From a virus, in the IMG/VR virus record IMGVR_UViG_3300020185_004577, positions 1 through 64,000 of that record: a DNA stretch of 64,000 nt; one strand, 5' to 3'. A program made the translations under genes and the position numbers. How positions within the stretch are numbered: the stretch's first letter is position 1; the number at the start of each line of letters is the position of its first letter. Shown here piece by piece: positions 3,810-60,029 of this stretch. The notes beneath the pieces were generated by a model that ran no database searches, had not been told where the DNA came from, and saw only the letters and a list, made by a program, of their open reading frames with translations.

Positions 3810-4307
3810 TTAGAATGGAAGGTCATCATCAGTACCCGTAACAGCTTGTGGTGCAGCAGCTTGTGGTGCAGCAGCTTGTGGTGCAGCAGCTTGTGGTGCG
3901 GCAGCTTGTGGTGCGGCAGCTTGTGGTGCGGCAGCTTGTGGTGCAGCAGCTTGTGGTGCAGCAGCTTGTTGGCTATCATTTCTTCTGCCATCTGTTAGGA
4001 TTCTAAAATCTCTAGCATTGATATCTGTATATCTAATTTTAGTTCCATCTCTTTCAACAGTTCTATATTTTAATTCCCCTTCTACAAAAACAAGGCTACC
4101 TTTCTGCAAAATTCTCTGAGCGTTTTCAGCTAATTTTCCAAACATAGTGATGTTATGCCAAGATGTCTCTTCTTGCTTTACTCCGCTTTTGTCAGTCCAG
4201 TTTTTATTTGTTCCTACTGAAATTCTAGCCAATGTAGTTCCATTGTCTAATCTTTTTACATCTGGGTCCGCCCCCAGTCTTCCTAATACTTCTACTTTGT
4301 TTACCAT
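3810..4307 (-). CDS. ssb: Bacterial-type single-stranded DNA-binding protein
   Basis: Binds single-stranded DNA during replication and repair. Residues 1-105 form the OB fold (MVNKVEVLGRLGADPDVKR, then SWHNITMFGKLAENA). Residues about 113-153 are a low-complexity linker of eight QAAAP repeats. The protein ends DDDLPF, the acidic tip that in bacterial SSBs binds partner proteins such as helicases and exonucleases. Its length (165) is normal for the family. The phage also has a gp32-type SSB at 41870, so this host-like copy may recruit host repair enzymes. A terminator follows. The promoter is not clear. Confidence 0.95.
   Translation of the reverse strand: MVNKVEVLGRLGADPDVKRLDNGTTLARISVGTNKNWTDKSGVKQEETSWHNITMFGKLAENAQRILQKGSLVFVEGELKYRTVERDGTKIRYTDINARDFRILTDGRRNDSQQAAAPQAAAPQAAAPQAAAPQAAAPQAAAPQAAAPQAAAPQAVTGTDDDLPF
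3849..3968 (-). repeat. 15-bp tandem repeat, eight copies (SSB linker)
   Basis: Eight nearly identical 15-bp units encode QAAAP. Copies differ only at occasional A/G positions. The high nucleotide identity suggests recent expansion by slippage, so linker length may vary between related phages. Confidence 0.95.
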
Positions 4308-6442: not shown

Positions 6443-6452
6443 AATATTTATA
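6443..6452 (+). promoter_or_regulatory. Phage-type promoter motif (AATATTTATA)
   Basis: AATATTTATA ends 24 nt before the ATG at 6477 and follows a run of T. It is one of the best matches to the structural-gene box and lies in the divergent region 6344-6476. Confidence 0.55.
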
Positions 6453-6476: not shown

Positions 6477-9302
6477 ATGCGTAATAATAAAAAACTTTAT
6501 AGCGAAGTTTCCAGAATGATTGAGCTAACAGAAAATAATCAAAATAAGTCAAAATTACTTAAAGAATCCTTTGGCAATAAGGTAATGTATAAAAAAATAT
6601 TAAAAGAATCTATTGATGATATAGATTTCACAGATATATTTGATATGTCTGATGAAAGCGAAAAAGATATGGACTCTAAAATAGACAGTAAATTTTCATC
6701 TCTTTCACCTAATGATGACATTTCTTTGTTGGGCAAATTAGCTCTAGCTACAGGTTCAATAAATAAGTTGCAAGCTGCAATGTTTGATTTAGAAAAGAAG
6801 GACACTCTAACCTTAAAAGACTTGAGCTCTGAAAGAGTTAAAAGGGATGATGATAAAGGAAGTGTCTTTGATAAAGGTAGAAAACCTTTATATCCTGGGC
6901 AATCTGTTGCAGATTTTAAAGATATGATGAAAAAGGGAAGGCTTATATTAAAAGTTGGAAATGAATCAGAAAATCTAGATGGTGAAAATGTAGACAAAGT
7001 ATTTAAATGGCTAGGAGGAACTAAAGGCGAAAAAAGCCTACACAACATAGGATTTGGAAGCAATGGTAAATTGAGCAAAAAAGGAAATGCAGAATTAAAC
7101 TTCTTGGCAAGAATGGTTTCCGACAAACCCAAAGATGAAGCAGAGCAAAAAATATTAGATACGTTCGGGAGTGCCGCTAAAAACAATGCACTGTCAATAT
7201 TGAAAGATTTTTATACGGTAGTAGCAAAAAACACTTTGCTTTCACTTTTAAATATGGAACCAACACCAGAAAATTTAGATACAATATCAGATGGTGTTAA
7301 TGAAGCGATAACAAATTTAGCTGGAGTTTCTGGTGGTGATTTAGAAAAAAAGCCTACTAGCTGGGATTCTTCTAGAAATATTGGACCTTGGATTTTGCAA
7401 GTTGCAAAAAATTATGCCAAAAACGTGCTTAAAAAAGATACAGAATATGTTCCAAACTTAAATTCAGCAAGACAATTCTTTCAAGATATGATGGATAGAG
7501 AGGGTGTTATATCTATAATTTCAAGAAAAGAGCCTTCTCATGAAAACTATGCTGATGAAGTGGAAAAAGTTGGAAGTAAATATTTGTATAAGTATTCAAA
7601 AATAGAAGATGCTATTGATGATTTATTAAATTCATCTAAAGTAAAAAATCATCATTTAAAATCTTATAATTTAGACATTTCTAAATCTAAAGATTTATTT
7701 TCTTCAGAAAGAAAAGCTCCAGTATCAATGTCTCCAGAAATGGAAAAGGAAACAGGCGAAATGATTGCTGATGAAGATGCAATTTTAGGAATTGATAAAG
7801 ATTCTGAATTAAAAATAAGAAACATACTATCTAAAGTGGTTGACTTTATGACTTTAGACTCTAAGAAATATGGAATAAAACAAGCTACTCACGACCCTTT
7901 GTATTTATCAGGAAAAGACAAGGAAGAAATAAAATCTGGTAAAGATGAAGGTTTAATTAGAAGAAGAAAAGAGTTGGCTAAAGAAAATGCTGTAAACTTC
8001 ATGTACAACTTTTTGCTATCTGCAATTGGAGACACAAAATACGGTACAGATATAGGAATATCAGGAAAGGTTAATCCAGAAGTAATGCAAAACTGGATAG
8101 ATGGTCAAAGAAAGTCTATATTAACTAAATTGATAGACATTGAAAAGAAAAACAATCCTAATATAGATTCTGAAAAAATAAAAGAAAGAGCTGAAGAGTT
8201 AGGACTATTAATTAAAGGTGGTAAAATGAGCCAATCTTTTAAAAGTGGATTAAAAGATTATTTTTCTGCAAACAAAAAGGACTTATCTAAAGTAATGGAA
8301 TTAATTTCTTCGACATCTCCAGAGGGATATGAAGTAGAAACGGATATAGAAACAATTTTTGAGCAGAAAGTTAGAGCTAAAATTCAAAATATAATAAAAG
8401 AATCATTTGTCGTAAAAGAAGAGGAATACGAAGACAACAACACGGAAGAAGAAGAGTTAGATAATTTAATAAATGTATTTGGAGACAGATTTGGAAAATC
8501 AACATCCTATGAAAGAGGTGGCAAAAATGGATTAGACAATGAAATAAAAAGTATAATAGATGGAAACAAATCCAAGTGGCATTTTGAAAATAGTGAAAAA
8601 GGTCAACATAACTATATAACTTCAGTTTTAGCTTCTATGTACAACTCATTGAGCAGCTCTCAACAGAGAAATGTTTTAAAACATATTTTCCTTTCTTTCT
8701 TCCCAAGAGGTGAAGAAAGTAGAATAGTTACACAACTAACTAACAAGCAAGTTCCTGGCTCTATGATGAGCAACAAGTCAGATATGTGGGATGTAATCAT
8801 ATCCTCAGAAGATGATGGAGTTTTGCTTTTGCAAAAAGCTTTAGAAACATATGAACCTAAAGGCTCTTTGTTTAAATACTTATTAAGAAGAATTCTTAAT
8901 GAAGCAAAAAATAGAACCAGAAAATTCGATGCATCAGTACACAAAGGCGAAAGAACTTACCACTCTAGTTATACAGACTCTATTGATGCCCCTATAGGAA
9001 GTGATGAGGATGGAAGTAAAGCTTTCGAATTAGAGGCTGAGCCAGCTATAAATGACAGGCTGGAAAAGGCAAAACACACACTATCAAGAGTGTTAAGCAC
9101 ATTAGGAGGTGAGCTTTCAAAAAGTCAAAGAAATTTATTGATGGCAATTAAAGATATGGGCGATGATGCATTTAGTCCCGATGGAGAGCTTGTATATGGA
9201 CTTATAGCAACTAGAACGGGGCTTAGCGATTCTAATGTTGGTAGTACAATGTCTGCCATAAAGAAAATGGCAAAAGAATTAAAGGGAAAAGGAATGGTAT
9301 AG
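6477..9302 (+). CDS. Giant sigma-70-like protein, probably virion-associated
   Basis: A 941-residue protein. The N-terminus has two hydrophobic-Lys-Glu-Ser sites (LLKES at 27-31, ILKES at 41-45), and a third, IIKES, lies at about 639-643. The last 160 residues resemble sigma factors in order: a region-2-like helix (GSLFKYLLRRILNEAKN, about 790-806), a short stretch SIDAPIGSDEDG like the sigma region 3-4 linker, and a terminal helix-turn-helix (LIATRTGLSDSNVGSTM, about 905-921) like region 4.2. A weaker region-2-like copy (NIGPWILQVAKNYAKN) is at about 305. The rest is not recognised. The usual phage sigma factor is far shorter. I infer a DNA-binding or polymerase-binding protein carried in the virion; it could instead be a structural protein with only fold-level similarity. 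Confidence 0.6.
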   Translation: MRNNKKLYSEVSRMIELTENNQNKSKLLKESFGNKVMYKKILKESIDDIDFTDIFDMSDESEKDMDSKIDSKFSSLSPNDDISLLGKLALATGSINKLQAAMFDLEKKDTLTLKDLSSERVKRDDDKGSVFDKGRKPLYPGQSVADFKDMMKKGRLILKVGNESENLDGENVDKVFKWLGGTKGEKSLHNIGFGSNGKLSKKGNAELNFLARMVSDKPKDEAEQKILDTFGSAAKNNALSILKDFYTVVAKNTLLSLLNMEPTPENLDTISDGVNEAITNLAGVSGGDLEKKPTSWDSSRNIGPWILQVAKNYAKNVLKKDTEYVPNLNSARQFFQDMMDREGVISIISRKEPSHENYADEVEKVGSKYLYKYSKIEDAIDDLLNSSKVKNHHLKSYNLDISKSKDLFSSERKAPVSMSPEMEKETGEMIADEDAILGIDKDSELKIRNILSKVVDFMTLDSKKYGIKQATHDPLYLSGKDKEEIKSGKDEGLIRRRKELAKENAVNFMYNFLLSAIGDTKYGTDIGISGKVNPEVMQNWIDGQRKSILTKLIDIEKKNNPNIDSEKIKERAEELGLLIKGGKMSQSFKSGLKDYFSANKKDLSKVMELISSTSPEGYEVETDIETIFEQKVRAKIQNIIKESFVVKEEEYEDNNTEEEELDNLINVFGDRFGKSTSYERGGKNGLDNEIKSIIDGNKSKWHFENSEKGQHNYITSVLASMYNSLSSSQQRNVLKHIFLSFFPRGEESRIVTQLTNKQVPGSMMSNKSDMWDVIISSEDDGVLLLQKALETYEPKGSLFKYLLRRILNEAKNRTRKFDASVHKGERTYHSSYTDSIDAPIGSDEDGSKAFELEAEPAINDRLEKAKHTLSRVLSTLGGELSKSQRNLLMAIKDMGDDAFSPDGELVYGLIATRTGLSDSNVGSTMSAIKKMAKELKGKGMV

Positions 9303-10275: not shown

Positions 10276-11094
10276 ATGAAAAAAGGTACATCAAATAACA
10301 TATTCATTAAAAACTTTATAAAAGAAAGTTATAAGTCTGTTGATGAAAAAGTTAATGAAATAAAAGATAAAATAAAAAAATTAGAATCAGAAGAAGAACA
10401 AGCTTTAAAAAACTGGGGTGGTGAGTCTGAGAGCGAAGAAGAATTTAGTGCTGAAGAGTTTTTTGGGGATGCTGGAGATGCTGCTGAAGAAGACATAAAA
10501 TCAGACCCAGAAATGGGTGGCGAAGATGAGTTTGCTCCATTTGGAAGCTTAGAAGACCCTAGAATGTTAAAGGGTTTAACTGAAAATCAATTTAGATTAG
10601 TTATTAGAAATATGATTAAAGAGTCAGGCTACCCATCATTAGATGGGGGTGAAAATGCTGATGGTGGCGAGGCTGAAAATGACAACAATGACGATGCTAC
10701 AGTCGCTGAGTCTGACGACAATTTAGAAGAAGAGAGGATAGCAAATACTGAATCTAAACATGAGGTTAACCAGCTTAGAAACTTTATTGGTAGCCATATA
10801 TATGGAGAAGATTTAGGTGACTTAGGAAAAATGTATGTTGCCTATTCATATGGAGAACAGTTTCCAACATATCTACACTACAAAGGAAAGTGGTACCACA
10901 ATACCGACTATTATATGTTAGATGATGGAAAGATTAATAAACCTACTGAAAAACACAAAAAAGACATGAAGCCCTCAAAAGAAACTCATGGTATGTCCAC
11001 TATAGGCTTGCAAAGTTTGATTAGAGCTTTTAAGAAAAAAAATAAGTTAGGAGATAACAATCATACAGATGTTGAACCTGGTGAAAAGAACTAA
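10276..11094 (+). CDS. Acidic protein with putative capsid-targeting motif
   Basis: A 272-residue protein. The start contains IFIKNFIKESYK (9-20), with I-K-E-S at 15-18. A second, very similar element, VIRNMIKESG, lies at about 109-118. Between and after them are long acidic low-complexity stretches rich in Glu, Asp and Gly (about 40-85 and 120-155). The C-terminal part (about 160-240) looks folded, with aromatic residues (YGEQFPTYLHYKGKWYHN). The two similar sites, each followed by Ser, suggest two proteolytic cuts that would release an acidic fragment. I do not recognise the family. A head-packaged internal protein is a reasonable guess. Confidence 0.65.
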   Translation: MKKGTSNNIFIKNFIKESYKSVDEKVNEIKDKIKKLESEEEQALKNWGGESESEEEFSAEEFFGDAGDAAEEDIKSDPEMGGEDEFAPFGSLEDPRMLKGLTENQFRLVIRNMIKESGYPSLDGGENADGGEAENDNNDDATVAESDDNLEEERIANTESKHEVNQLRNFIGSHIYGEDLGDLGKMYVAYSYGEQFPTYLHYKGKWYHNTDYYMLDDGKINKPTEKHKKDMKPSKETHGMSTIGLQSLIRAFKKKNKLGDNNHTDVEPGEKN

Positions 11095-26503: not shown

Positions 26504-27370
26504 TTAACTCAAATGTTGCTTTAATATATTACTTCTACTCCTATGTCTCAAAACCTTTATGGCAGAATCTTTTATTTGACGAACTCTCTCTCTTGTTAAT
26601 CCAAAATATTCACCCACTTCTTCGAGTGTCATCTTTGGATATCCCATTATTCCGTAATACATACAAACAACCTCTCTCTGTCTAGGCTGTATTGTTTTAA
26701 GTGTTGAAGATAAATCTTGATGTAAAGAGTCTGAGGCCACACTTATATCCACATCATTCATCTCTCCTTCTGAAATTTTATCATACAAACTATAACCTTC
26801 ATCATCAGTTGACAGAGGAGCGTCTAAAGATGCTTGAGGCTGCGAGGAACGTAATAATCTAGATATTTTCACTACATCCTCTTGCATTATTTCAGCTATC
26901 TCTTCCTCTGTAGGCTCTCTTTGATTTCTTTGTTCAAAATCTCTAGACTCTTGCTTTAACTTATAATAAGTACTGATTTGATTTGTAGGAAGCCTAACCA
27001 TTCTAGAATTATTTGCCAAAGCTTCTAGTATAGATTGTCTAATCCACCATACAGCATATGATATAAATTTAAAACCCCTTGTTTGGTCAAATCTTTCGGC
27101 AGCCTTTATTAAGCCATAATTACCTTCATTTACTAAATCTTCAAAATTTATACCCTTACCCTGATATTGTTTTGCAACACTTATAACAAATCTTAAATTG
27201 CCAGTAATTAACTTTTCTCTAGACCTTATATTACCTGCTTGTGACTCGATGGCTAACTTATGCTCTTCTTCTTCTGTTAGTTGTTTGATTTTATTTATTT
27301 CATTTAAATATGACTTTATGGAATCAGAATCTCTATTCGTTATTTTATTAGTTATTTTCAGTTGCCTCAT
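26504..27370 (-). CDS. Sigma-70 family factor, RpoD-like copy 1
   Basis: A 288-residue primary-type sigma factor that directs RNA polymerase to promoters. The N-terminus MRQLKITNKITNRDSDSIKS is nearly that of Bacteroidota RpoD. Region 2 has NLRFVISVAKQY, DLVNEGNYGLIKAAERFD and FKFISYAVWWIRQSI (about 55-115). Region 3 (NSRMVRLPTNQI) and region 4.2, with the helix-turn-helix LEEVGEYFGLTRERVRQI, complete it. Like the host protein it lacks region 1.1. It has its own host-type promoter and starts a unit of small gene, exonuclease, unknown gene and helicase. It looks host-derived and closer to RpoD than copy 2. Confidence 0.95.
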   Translation of the reverse strand: MRQLKITNKITNRDSDSIKSYLNEINKIKQLTEEEEHKLAIESQAGNIRSREKLITGNLRFVISVAKQYQGKGINFEDLVNEGNYGLIKAAERFDQTRGFKFISYAVWWIRQSILEALANNSRMVRLPTNQISTYYKLKQESRDFEQRNQREPTEEEIAEIMQEDVVKISRLLRSSQPQASLDAPLSTDDEGYSLYDKISEGEMNDVDISVASDSLHQDLSSTLKTIQPRQREVVCMYYGIMGYPKMTLEEVGEYFGLTRERVRQIKDSAIKVLRHRSRSNILKQHLS

Positions 27371-27502: not shown

Positions 27503-28366
27503 TTATAGATATTTTATGAGCAAATCTTTTGTTGAAGTGTTTTCTAACAACTTTTTCTCAGCCTTTCTTGCAATTTGCCTAATCCTCTCATTGCTATACC
27601 CTAGTTTTCTAGCAATTTCCTCTTTAGAATGCGCTTGACAATCTATGCCATAAGTGTACCTAATGACTAAAGTTTCATTGTTCGTAAGTATTTCAAATGC
27701 TCTGTACATATCTTGTTTTAAAGAATCGTCTAACAATGAAGAGTCTGGCTTGCCCAAGCTATCATCTTCTATTAAATTCACTAAAGTTGAAGAGTTTTCA
27801 TCAGAACCTACTTTTGCATCTAAAGATGAATGAAAAGAACTAGCTTGCTGTAGAAGCTTACCAGATTCAGCGTCTATATCCATATATTCACAAACTTCGA
27901 ATTCTGTTGGCTCTCTTTCTAAAACTTGCTGCAAGTGCTGTACGGCTCTTATATATTTCCCAGCTTCTAAATTTTTATTAGAAGGAACTTTTATCATTCT
28001 CTTCTTTTCAGATATGGCTTGTATTATAGTTTGTCTAATCCACCAAACCGCAAAAGATATAAATTTAAAACCTCTAGTTCCATCGAATCTTTCGGCAGCC
28101 TTTATGAGTCCCAAATTACCTTCATTTATCAAATCGGCTAATGGCAATCCTGTATTTTGGTATTTTTTAGCAACACTAATTACGAATTTTAAATTTGATT
28201 GAACCAATTCTTTTAAAGCCTCTTCGTCACCTTCTTGAATCAATTTAGAAAGCTCAAATTCTCTTTCCGGGGTTATGGAATCAAATTTATTTACATCCGT
28301 AAAGTATTGTTCTATTGATTTTTCAGTTCTGTTTGTAAGGCTTTGTTGAATTTTTAATTGTCTCAT
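27503..28366 (-). CDS. Sigma-70 family factor, RpoD-like copy 2
   Basis: A 287-residue paralogue of the neighbouring sigma gene. It also starts MRQLKI (MRQLKIQQSLTNRTEKSI) and keeps NLKFVISVAKKYQ, DLINEGNLGLIKAAERFD and FKFISFAVWWIRQTI. Region 3 has changed (KKRMIKVPSNKNLEAGKY). The region 4 helix-turn-helix EEIARKLGYSNERIRQI also differs from copy 1. The change at the DNA-reading helices suggests a different -35/-33 choice, making it a candidate reader of the phage-type boxes. No promoter with both boxes is visible upstream. Confidence 0.95.
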   Translation of the reverse strand: MRQLKIQQSLTNRTEKSIEQYFTDVNKFDSITPEREFELSKLIQEGDEEALKELVQSNLKFVISVAKKYQNTGLPLADLINEGNLGLIKAAERFDGTRGFKFISFAVWWIRQTIIQAISEKKRMIKVPSNKNLEAGKYIRAVQHLQQVLEREPTEFEVCEYMDIDAESGKLLQQASSFHSSLDAKVGSDENSSTLVNLIEDDSLGKPDSSLLDDSLKQDMYRAFEILTNNETLVIRYTYGIDCQAHSKEEIARKLGYSNERIRQIARKAEKKLLENTSTKDLLIKYL

Positions 28367-29763: not shown

Positions 29764-30291
29764 CTACTTTTTCTCAACCCAAACAACTTTACCTTCAGAC
29801 ATTACTGGGTTGTGTACTGCACCCTTGAAAGGCTTACCTCCTGTAAGTTCTGAATATTTAGCTTGCAATTGAGATTCATCACTTTGCATCTTTTTCTTTA
29901 ATCCTTGAATTTGACTTGCAATATTAGCGATTTCTTTTTGTGCTTTTTCATATTTTGCTTTATCAGAAGCGTCTGTATATGCTTTTTTAACATCTCCTGC
30001 AGCTTTGTTTACTGCATCTTTCGCTTGGCCTGCAGCATCTTTTGCAGCATCAGCAACTTTTCCAGCGGTCTCTTTAGCTTTTCCACCTATCATTTTACCA
30101 ACACCCTTAAGTCCAGCACCAATACTTCCAAACAACTCTTGAAGCTCTTCTTCAGAAATATCTTCTCCTTCATTTATTCTAGATATGGCTTCTGTTAGTT
30201 TTGCCTTTTTTTCTTTAAGAGATTGAGCCTTAATGTACTTTGAAGCCTCTTCACTTATAATAGCCTTCAATTCTTTTCTTGTTATTTTCAT
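29764..30291 (-). CDS. Amphipathic repeat protein with capsid-targeting-like start
   Basis: A 175-residue protein. The N-terminus MKITRKELKAIISEEASKYI carries the I-S-E-E pattern near residues 11-15. About 65-120 is an amphipathic, Ala/Lys/Asp-rich helix (KETAGKVADAAKDAAGQ, then KDAVNKAAGDVKKAY) with an 11-residue-type period like LEA or CsbD proteins. The rest is a coiled coil and a short C-terminal beta segment (VMSEGKVVWVEKK). The frame runs further upstream through a hydrophobic stretch that crosses the promoter box, so the ATG at 30291 is preferred. It could bind membranes or coat DNA; a virion internal protein is possible. Confidence 0.65.
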   Translation of the reverse strand: MKITRKELKAIISEEASKYIKAQSLKEKKAKLTEAISRINEGEDISEEELQELFGSIGAGLKGVGKMIGGKAKETAGKVADAAKDAAGQAKDAVNKAAGDVKKAYTDASDKAKYEKAQKEIANIASQIQGLKKKMQSDESQLQAKYSELTGGKPFKGAVHNPVMSEGKVVWVEKK

Positions 30292-31769: not shown

Positions 31770-32414
31770 TTAAATTCTATTCTTATATTTTAATATTTTT
31801 TGCATTTTTACAGGAGTAAGAACAAGTCCATTTTTTAGTGTTAAAGAAAATTGCTTAGCAATAGCCCTTTCTATCAAATCAAAGCTTAATCTAGTATCTC
31901 CAACCAAAAACCCTCTGTCAGTAAATTTGACAATAAATGGGAAGTTTGTTTTAGTGTCAAACCTAACTATCAAATCTTTTTTTGGTACTTTTGGCATTTC
32001 CTTAGCTGGATTAGCAACTTTTTTGCTTACAACATTGAGCTCTTTTTCTTGTTCTGTCAAAGATTCGGCTGCAGATTTCTCTGCTGTTATTTTTTGATTT
32101 TCTAAATCTGTAACTCTTTGTTTGGCAGAAGATTCTAATTCTCTAGTTAAATCCAATTGGTCTTGAGTTATCTTTACCTGCGCATCAGCCATTTTTTTAT
32201 AATCGGCCCCACTAGCAGAAGTTTGAACTTGTTTGTCCATTTTTAATTTTTCTGTTAGATTTTTTATGCTTTCCGTAGTTTTTTCTAAAGTATCTTTAGC
32301 CAATTCTATTGCATCTTCTAAAGTTGCAACATTGTCAACTTTTGCATCATCTTCAGACAAATACAAAGAAGCTTCTTTTAATATAAATGAATCTATATCT
32401 CTTTTGGTAAACAT
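31770..32414 (-). CDS. Coiled-coil protein with capsid-targeting-like start
   Basis: A 214-residue protein. MFTKRDIDSFILKEASLYLS holds the I-L-K-E-A site at 11-15. About 30-130 is a long coiled coil (IKNLTEKLKMDKQVQ, DQLDLTRELESSAKQ). A C-terminal basic/beta segment (KDLIVRFDTKTNFPFIV) may be the folded end. It has a strong phage-type box 16 nt before the ATG. A head-packaged or scaffold-like protein is a reasonable guess. Confidence 0.6.
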   Translation of the reverse strand: MFTKRDIDSFILKEASLYLSEDDAKVDNVATLEDAIELAKDTLEKTTESIKNLTEKLKMDKQVQTSASGADYKKMADAQVKITQDQLDLTRELESSAKQRVTDLENQKITAEKSAAESLTEQEKELNVVSKKVANPAKEMPKVPKKDLIVRFDTKTNFPFIVKFTDRGFLVGDTRLSFDLIERAIAKQFSLTLKNGLVLTPVKMQKILKYKNRI

Positions 32415-32726: not shown

Positions 32727-34448
32727 TTAAGACATTCTATTATTGATTTCATCTCTAACTTTAGCAGCTTTTTCATAATCTTCTACTTCCAAAGAAGAGG
32801 CTAAAGCATCATTAAGTTCATCAATATTCATATCTGATATGTTTTTATCAATTTGTGTCTCTTGAACTTCTGGGCTTTCTTCTACTTCAATTCTATCATC
32901 ACCATCTTCGATAGCCCTTAATATATCATCTGTATTATCAGAACCTGCATCAACTATATCTTCTGGGCTAGGTGTTTGACCATTATTTTCTTCTTGATAT
33001 TCTTCAATATCTTCTTCTATCTCGTCTAACAACTCCTCAAGAGCAGAAATTCCTGCCTGGCCATCATGTAGTACTTTATCCATTAAATCCAAAAATTCGT
33101 CTGGCTCTAGCATGCCAAGCTCATATAACAAGGTGGAAACTATAGTGTAATCATTTTCTCTATCTTGAACTATATAATCGATTGCATCATGTAAGTATTT
33201 CCAAATTCTAGGGCCTAATAATTTCATCCAGTGCTCTTCTTGGTATGAATCTGCCCTACCCAATACTGCTTTTTGCATTTTTGGGGTCATATTTTCTAAA
33301 CTGTATGCAAATAAGTATTCCACCACAGATTTTGCTACTTCATGAAGTAATATGGGAAACAGATGAGCAGAGGCCTTAGCTCCAGTTACTGGTCTAGTTT
33401 GCACCTCATCTTCGCCCTCTTCACCATCTTCGTCTTGAGAGTCTTCTTCATCTCCAAATTTTAATTCTGATTTACCCATATTAGTTCTCATGCCAGTGGC
33501 TTTTGGGTCAAAACTCCAAGTCATCAACTCAACAGTTGGCATAATTTCCATATACAAAGCAAATAACTCGGGGTCAATCGCTTCCACTTCAGCTCTTAAG
33601 TCAGATATAGTTTTGTGACTTCTATATCCTGCACCCATCGCTAATGCGTTTTGCATAAATCTTTTGTCTAAATTCTTTTTTAATTGCTCTTGTTCTTCTG
33701 GTGTAAAATCATCTTCTATAGTTTGTTCTAACTGTTGTTGCAAATCTTGACCAGAATCATCTTCCATATCCATGTCTGGTCCATTTTCTAAAGGCTTTAA
33801 ATCGGCTTCTATTTTTTGCATGATTCTATCTTCTACACCAAAAGTACGCTTCACTACATCTAAAGCAAGTCTTTCAAGCGCTTCTTTATGTCTAGCCTCT
33901 AACATGCTAGCCATCATTGTTTTTTGCATAGCATTCATAGGAGCTATAAGCCCTGCTTCTTGTGCATTTCTTAACACCTCATTAAACTCTTCTGTTCCTA
34001 ATTTTGATAAAGTCTTGAAATCTGGTTCTCCTTTTTGGAATATTTCTATATGTTTAAAAGGAGTATCTTCTGCACCCTCCTCTCCAGATAAGCCAGATTT
34101 AATTCTTGGGTGTATAAACCTTTCTCCTGAAGCCTCATCTTCTGGTCTCAATGGAGCTTCATTTATCATCCTTCTATACTTATTATACTCCTCTATTTTT
34201 TTATATTTTCTTTCTAATGTATAAACGCTTTCCATCTGAACACTTTCTGCTTTAGGCTTAGGTTTTTCCGATGGATTTGGGTCTCTATCTGGTATGCCTC
34301 TTCTTTTTTTCTTTTTCCCAGTGTCTGTATCTGTATCTGTATCTGTATCAGTATCGGGATTGGCTATTTCATTTTCTTCCATCTTTTTTTCCATAAGACG
34401 CTTAGCAATAGCTTCTTTTAAAAGTTTTTTTAAATCTTTCTTATTCAT
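32727..34448 (-). CDS. Large acidic virion-type protein with TD repeat and UVR motif
   Basis: A 573-residue protein. The N-terminus [18 protein letters not shown] has the L-K-E-A site (10-13), and a second site, MINEAPL, is at about 94-100. A Thr-Asp repeat (32-43) and a KKKKRR patch separate them. The middle (150-480) is helical and acidic with an [18 protein letters not shown] segment. About 540-573 is a UVR-like motif ([20 protein letters not shown]). No family recognised; the size and acidity fit an internal or head-associated protein. A phage-type box lies 30 nt upstream. Confidence 0.65.
34322..34356 (-). repeat. 6-bp microsatellite (Thr-Asp repeat)
   Basis: About five copies of a GATACA-type hexamer (minus strand) encode the Thr-Asp repeat of the gene at 32727. 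Near-identical units suggest slippage. Confidence 0.85.
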
Positions 34449-59534: not shown

Positions 59535-60029
59535 CTATTTAGTTTGCAACCAATTAACTACATAATTATTTGATGCTGCAATAGGATTTTTTTGAGACAA
59601 TATTTTTTTGGCATCTAAAGACAAACTTCTCAAGTCTCTAATAGTACTTGAGCTTATAGCTCCATCCCGACCAGATATGTCATTAAAACCTCTTTTCATT
59701 AATGATTTGTATTTTTTAAATAAATCTTTTATTTTTTCAGAAAAAGATTCTTTATCAATGCCGAAATATGAAGATAATAAAATAGACTCAATTTTTTTAA
59801 AAGCATCTTCCATCATATTTTCACTTTCTTTATTCAAAACATTACTCTTATCAAAAACAGGATGTTCATACCAACTTTTAACATCTCCCAAATCATTGCT
59901 AGATGACATTTTGTGTCCATTTTTGTTATTTTTTTTCAAATGTTTGAAATTTCCAAACATACCTCCAGGAGGAGCTTCATTCAAAAACGATTCTCTAACC
60001 AACTTTCTTATATAATATTTACTATCCAT
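59535..60029 (-). CDS. Unknown protein with strong capsid-targeting-like start
   Basis: A 164-residue protein. MDSKYYIRKLVRESFLNEAPPGG holds two sites in a row, V-R-E-S (11-14) and L-N-E-A (16-19), the second followed by a Pro-Pro-Gly-Gly turn. The middle is Gly/Asn-rich and basic (GNFKHLKKNNKNGHKM); the C-terminal half is helical (FKKIESILLSSYFGID, IRDLRSLSLDAKKILSQ). It is one of the clearest cases of the repeated N-terminal pattern. A phage-type box is 19 nt upstream. It may be an internal head or neck protein. Confidence 0.6.
   Translation of the reverse strand: MDSKYYIRKLVRESFLNEAPPGGMFGNFKHLKKNNKNGHKMSSSNDLGDVKSWYEHPVFDKSNVLNKESENMMEDAFKKIESILLSSYFGIDKESFSEKIKDLFKKYKSLMKRGFNDISGRDGAISSSTIRDLRSLSLDAKKILSQKNPIAASNNYVVNWLQTK

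Follow-up and report, generated by a model that had tools for sequence, protein, structure and literature searches.

The virus analyzed here encodes a 941-residue protein that combines a sigma-70-like C terminus with an N terminus that, by sequence, fits T4-type tagged proteins. A sigma factor is the RNA polymerase subunit that sets where transcription begins. Our preferred reading, held tentatively and with somewhat less than even confidence, is that this protein is a precursor that is made late, packaged, and cut by the prohead protease, and whose C-terminal piece acts as a sigma factor in the next host. In its most specific form (a virion-packaged sigma, in which a head-targeted precursor yields two sigma-like pieces that are ejected onto host RNA polymerase before any phage gene expression), the proposal is possible but more doubtful.

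Phage, gene, and orthologues

The window (the whole stretch of 64,000 nucleotides that was analyzed) covers the first 64 kb of G000, an IMG/VR virus record of 83,144 bp. The terminase relates the phage to T4-like myoviruses, its best cultured matches (31 to 34% identity) including Microcystis phage Mel-JY01 and Flavobacterium phage immuto. The first of two RpoD-like sigma factors in the window has almost all of its best matches in Bacteroidota, with 52% identity to Arenibacter, which makes a (marine) member of that phylum, of the Flavobacteriaceae or another group, the probable host. The features to which we refer are as follows (window coordinates; a slash marks a candidate cut).

6445..6452, plus strand: TATTTATA, late-type upstream element, 24 bp before the start codon (TATTTAT enrichment; conserved block in three orthologues)
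6477..9302, plus strand: sigma-70-like tagged protein, 941 aa (open reading frame; full-length orthologues in L002 and L036)
6477..6527, plus strand: putative capsid-targeting head, residues 1-17, MRNNKKLYSEVSRMIEL (EVSRMIEL invariant in three orthologues; like tags of other proteins in these phages)
6558..6569, plus strand: candidate prohead-protease site 1, LKE/S, residues 28-31 (kept in L002, absent in L036)
6600..6611, plus strand: candidate prohead-protease site 2, LKE/S, residues 42-45 (LKE/S, LTE/S, and IKE/E in three orthologues)
7131..7445, plus strand: first domain resembling region 2, residues 219-323 (N-half matched by hhalign to the sigma profile from Bacteroidota, E 5.7e-4)
8394..8405, plus strand: internal candidate cleavage site, IIKE/S, residues 640-643 (IIKES, IIRES, and MLKES in three orthologues)
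8763..8936, plus strand: second region-2-like domain (2.2-2.4), residues 763-820 (TIGR02937; Pfam Sigma70_r2, E 0.035; hhalign)
8979..9014, plus strand: SIDAPIGSDEDG, resembling the region 3.2 linker (sigma finger), residues 835-846 (alignment to the phage's own RpoD-like sigma)
9060..9281, plus strand: region-4-like domain with helix-turn-helix, residues 862-935 (TIGR02937; hhalign; AF2 segment with pLDDT ~70)
26504-27370 and 27503-28366, minus strand: two RpoD-like sigma factors (the first 52% identical to RpoD of Bacteroidota)

According to the list of open reading frames (ORFs) and the translation, the gene begins with ATG and stays open over 941 codons, and the opposite strand has many stops in the same register. 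The ORF and the motifs quoted in a preliminary description of this DNA were all located: LKES at residues 28 to 31 and 42 to 45, SIDAPIGSDEDG, and, near the C terminus, LIATRTGLSDSNVGSTM. The frame is conserved over its full length in orthologues from L002 (record G001, 125 kb; 75% identity) and L036 (record G007, 232.5 kb; 57% identity), and inspection of the ORF lists found the order of neighboring genes to be identical in all three records. Scans of viral contigs and genome contigs and a profile search of 11 related records returned only these two orthologues; in tblastn against 50,697 phage records, the best E value was no better than 0.5, and the protein's profile had no match in Flavobacterium phage immuto, Microcystis phage Mel-JY01, or LR756508. 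Orthologue comparisons are therefore of three sequences (the window's protein, L002, and L036), which are all that are known and come from uncultured phages. An internal duplication, with the N-half compared to the C-half, was rejected as not significant.

Two observations concern other genes of these phages. A 15-bp tandem repeat of 8.5 copies (window 3842-3969), which gives APQAA repeats in the protein, lies within a gene of single-stranded DNA-binding type. The window's phage has DNA polymerase III alpha as one ORF (G000 67948-71931), and G007 has it as two (98060-100333, in L046/L047, and 100455-102554, in L047), of which the first ends in an intein-like N-half (GRG/CFLPGSRVKM...) and the second starts with an intein-like C-half (...GVHN/SAAGSLLSW), making the pair a candidate split intein.

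Sigma-70 homology

The NCBIfam model TIGR02937 (sigma70-ECF) matches the C-terminal fragments of the three orthologues at E values of 4.5e-6, 2.3e-4, and 1.4e-6; the corresponding 26.4, 20.8, and 28 bits do not reach the curated cut-off of 42.9, and the protein is for this reason not filed as an ECF sigma. Pfam Sigma70_r2 likewise matches the C-terminal region 2 under the Pfam cut-off. The TIGR02937 match in G009/G012, at 14.6 bits, is a tape-measure protein and was used as the noise level. Independent sigma profiles were built from 30 sigma loci of six Bacteroidota genomes and searched against ORFs of at least 100 aa from three phages (G000, G001, and G007): the three orthologues were recovered at E values of 7e-6, 2.4e-5, and 0.009, and they and six RpoD-like proteins were the only such ORFs above the inclusion threshold. 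When the C-terminal 300 residues were compared with the Bacteroidota sigma profile by hhalign, the match (90.5%, score 49.0, E 1.4e-6) exceeded the best of 49 non-sigma control families (score 27.6) and extended over 139 columns, running collinearly from region 2.2-2.4 through the linker to region 4.

Further resemblance comes from the phage itself. The segment SIDAPIGSDEDG aligns with SLDAPLSTDDEG in an RpoD-like sigma that the phage itself encodes (E 9.6e-5 from the linker to region 4, versus 0.26 to 0.34 for unrelated alignments), and the linker and region 4 resemble those of the phage's RpoD-like sigmas. Region 2, linker (SIDAP motif included), and region 4 keep their collinear order in all three orthologues. 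AF2 models of parts of the protein are of low quality (mean pLDDT 49 and 50); with the C-terminal model (mean pLDDT 49), the top Foldseek structures are mostly sigma factors, at E values of 0.05 or worse and none significant, and the region-4 model has short helix-turn-helix proteins among its matches in BFVD (best probability 0.97 but E 1.0). The profile comparisons support the last ~180 residues being a diverged sigma-70 homologue. The preliminary description had proposed the order region 2, linker, and region 4, along with a profile comparison of the C terminus; independent profile tests bear out that order at better than chance, with sigma above all 49 control families.

Two alternatives bear on this homology. 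The protein could be a large structural or assembly protein whose likeness to sigma is convergent helical sequence: it is helical and rich in K and E, and a tape-measure protein also scores with TIGR02937. Given that the orthologues score well above this protein with the same model and exceed every control family in profile comparison, we consider such convergence very improbable. Alternatively, the protein might be packaged and processed, with its sigma-like domains no longer functioning as sigma but as an internal/core or DNA-binding protein, or in the sequestration of host RNA polymerase. Region 4 is the least conserved segment between orthologues, sigma scores fall under the family cut-offs, and non-late genes are already served by host-type promoters (see below), all of which would suit a lost sigma function; the collinear region 2, SIDAP linker, and region 4 of three orthologues argue for its retention, and we judge the loss unlikely, though deserving of serious weight.

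There is moderate support for an extra region 2 in the N-half, at residues 219 to 323. The N-half scores 35 against the Bacteroidota sigma profile, versus 27.6 for the best non-sigma control family, and the slice of residues 200 to 345 reaches an E value of 7.2e-5, although this slice was picked after the match was seen. NF009165 matches the same region weakly, and AF2/Foldseek results for the N-half are also weak, with sigma domain 2 structures present amid unrelated matches. The weaker region-2 copy that had been placed near residue 305 is thus real in outline. A region-4-like domain proposed by eye in the N-half (residues 565-598) was rejected, there being no profile support.

Putative targeting tag and candidate protease sites

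The T4 protease gp21 cleaves behind L/I-X-E, and for head targeting ten residues at the N terminus of IPIII are enough (PMC9026906). The N-terminal sites of the 941-residue protein match this prohead-protease rule, (L/I)-x-E, with site 2 kept in all three orthologues, and a third, internal site (IIKE/S, residues 640-643) had been overlooked in the preliminary description. The string [LI][KR]ES occurs three times in the protein versus 0.2 times in residue shuffles (p 0.0016) and twice within the first 50 residues versus 0.011 expected (0 of 5,000 shuffles as high); only four [LI]xE[SAG] strings are present, at residues 28, 42, 640, and 807. At both site 2 and the internal site, P3 (L/I) and P1 (E) match the protease rule in the three orthologues and X is variable, and such retention of the protease-rule residues amid changing neighbors fits selection on the sites, even if three sequences are few.

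The tag is atypical in that its first (L/I)-x-E falls at residue 28, versus ~14 in other tags; a nearer candidate within the head, MIE/L, has M at P3. The N-terminal tag motif (residues 5-24) was observed 23 times versus 3.7 expected in G007, 9 versus 2.2 in G000, and 11 versus 2.8 in G001, with p values that are optimistic because the pattern was written after the tags were inspected. A gp21-type protease (PF03420) is encoded by G007, the 232-kb record (E 2e-34), and by G006 (E 1.2e-34); none was found in G000, the window's own record, or in G001, both of which are incomplete. The capsid protein of G007 has a candidate L-N-E/V site. The likeness that had been drawn between the N terminus and T4 tags is supported by conservation, by the gp21-type protease of a relative, and by the late-type motif upstream; of the two N-terminal LKES sites, site 1 is missing in L036, the most distant orthologue.

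Six other proteins of the window carry N-terminal tags ending in (I/L/V)-x-E (2015-2425, 10276-11094, 29764-30291, 31770-32414, 32727-34448, and 59535-60029); mostly without known family, they are candidates for ejected internal proteins. The protein at L003:8492-9100 ends in RKIIKEFLN, a possible C-terminal cleavage site; T4 Alt is known to be processed at its C terminus (PMC9026906).

Upstream motifs and expression class

Of 453 genes, 99 have TATTTAT upstream, whereas permutations of the same composition give a median of 33 and the reverse complement gives 22. Its carriers include the terminase, protease, scaffold, and tail genes, most tag genes, and the gene studied here, and it precedes 23 of 34 tagged versus 77 of 345 untagged genes (odds 7.3, p 1.3e-7). 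Among the 118 genes without this late motif, 24 have TTG-N17-23-TAnnTTTG, versus 1.1 expected, a pattern close to the primary promoter of Bacteroidota (PMC6847099). We infer that TATTTATA/TATTTAT is a late promoter and TAnnTTTG a host-type promoter. A possible third upstream class, TTGACTTT, lies about 46 to 48 bp ahead of several starts; in the upstream regions of G000, G001, and G007, it has 54 occurrences versus 36.5 expected and is conserved at some places.

Because promoters of the host type are over-represented among the non-late genes, there is no need to invoke a new class of early promoter, and early transcription could start without a delivered sigma. This weakens the earlier suggestion that such a factor would let the phage redirect transcription immediately upon entry.

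A late-type motif would also be expected of a late sigma-like factor that acts, unpackaged, in the same infected cell, its LxE sites being fortuitous or serving something else. The atypical form of the tag would fit this alternative, as would the small sigma-like protein in the phage group, a possible partner. It accounts less readily for the conservation of site 2 and the internal site amid varying neighbors, or for the link between such tags and the late motif, and we regard it as unlikely.

Proposed mechanism

The simplest reading of a protein that is sigma-like, made late, and equipped with head-targeting sites is as cargo destined for the next cell, and the conserved internal IIKE/S site suggests a precursor cut into two products. 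From the gene, its orthologues, their sigma homology, the conserved sites, the protease gene of a relative, and the common upstream motif, we infer promoter function, packaging, cleavage, ejection, and polymerase binding and effect as follows. The gene would be transcribed late, and its product would join the prohead core by means of its N-terminal tag. A protease of the T4 gp21 type, presumably encoded by the phage, would cut after (L/I)-x-E near residue 30 or 44, releasing the protein from the core, and again at residue 642, giving a piece of ~600 residues with one region-2-like domain and a 299-residue C-terminal piece holding region 2, linker, and region 4. Both pieces would remain in the head and pass into the host cell together with the DNA, where the C-terminal piece, as a diverged sigma factor, would bind the RNA polymerase of the Bacteroidota host and tilt it toward phage DNA before phage proteins exist. 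The function in the new host is the weakest step of this mechanism: as host-type promoters already serve many non-late genes, the delivered factor may bias the host sigma without replacing it, or it may act on a minor promoter class.

Comparison with known systems

To our knowledge, a virion-borne sigma factor would be new, no case having been described, and a literature search (not exhaustive) found no described case of a virion delivering only a sigma or specificity subunit; nor did virion proteomics for these phages turn up. If the protein is virion-borne, it would represent a novel means by which an entering phage seizes control of transcription, and other tag-bearing proteins of these marine phages would be worth examining as ejected effectors.

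(i) Sigma-70 factors of ECF-like layout share the collinear region 2, linker, and region 4 with our protein, which differs in scoring below curated cut-offs and in being a tagged protein of 941 aa that also contains a second region 2 and some 600 further residues.

(ii) Small phage sigma factors of the T4 gp55 type are, like our protein, phage-encoded and sigma-like. G007 encodes a candidate, gp55-like by layout (L037:5719-6603; G007 165718-166602), to which Flavobacterium phage immuto and Microcystis phage Mel-JY01 have related proteins. It is small, has no tag recognizable by eye, and shows no profile similarity to the 941-residue protein (E 0.34).

(iii) T4 Alt and IPI-III resemble our protein in having an N-terminal tag with (L/I)-x-E, and the phage group has a gp21-type protease. 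Alt is packaged and modifies host RNA polymerase after ejection (PMC9026906). It is an ADP-ribosyltransferase, however, whereas the putative cargo here is sigma-70-like and would be split at an internal site.

(iv) N4 and phiKZ-type phages deliver an RNA polymerase from the virion (PMC12633501, PMC7824862), and transcription machinery would likewise come from the virion here. Theirs is a whole polymerase, whereas our protein would supply no more than a specificity subunit to the polymerase of the host; if so, a specificity subunit alone would offer another, cheaper route to redirecting host transcription.
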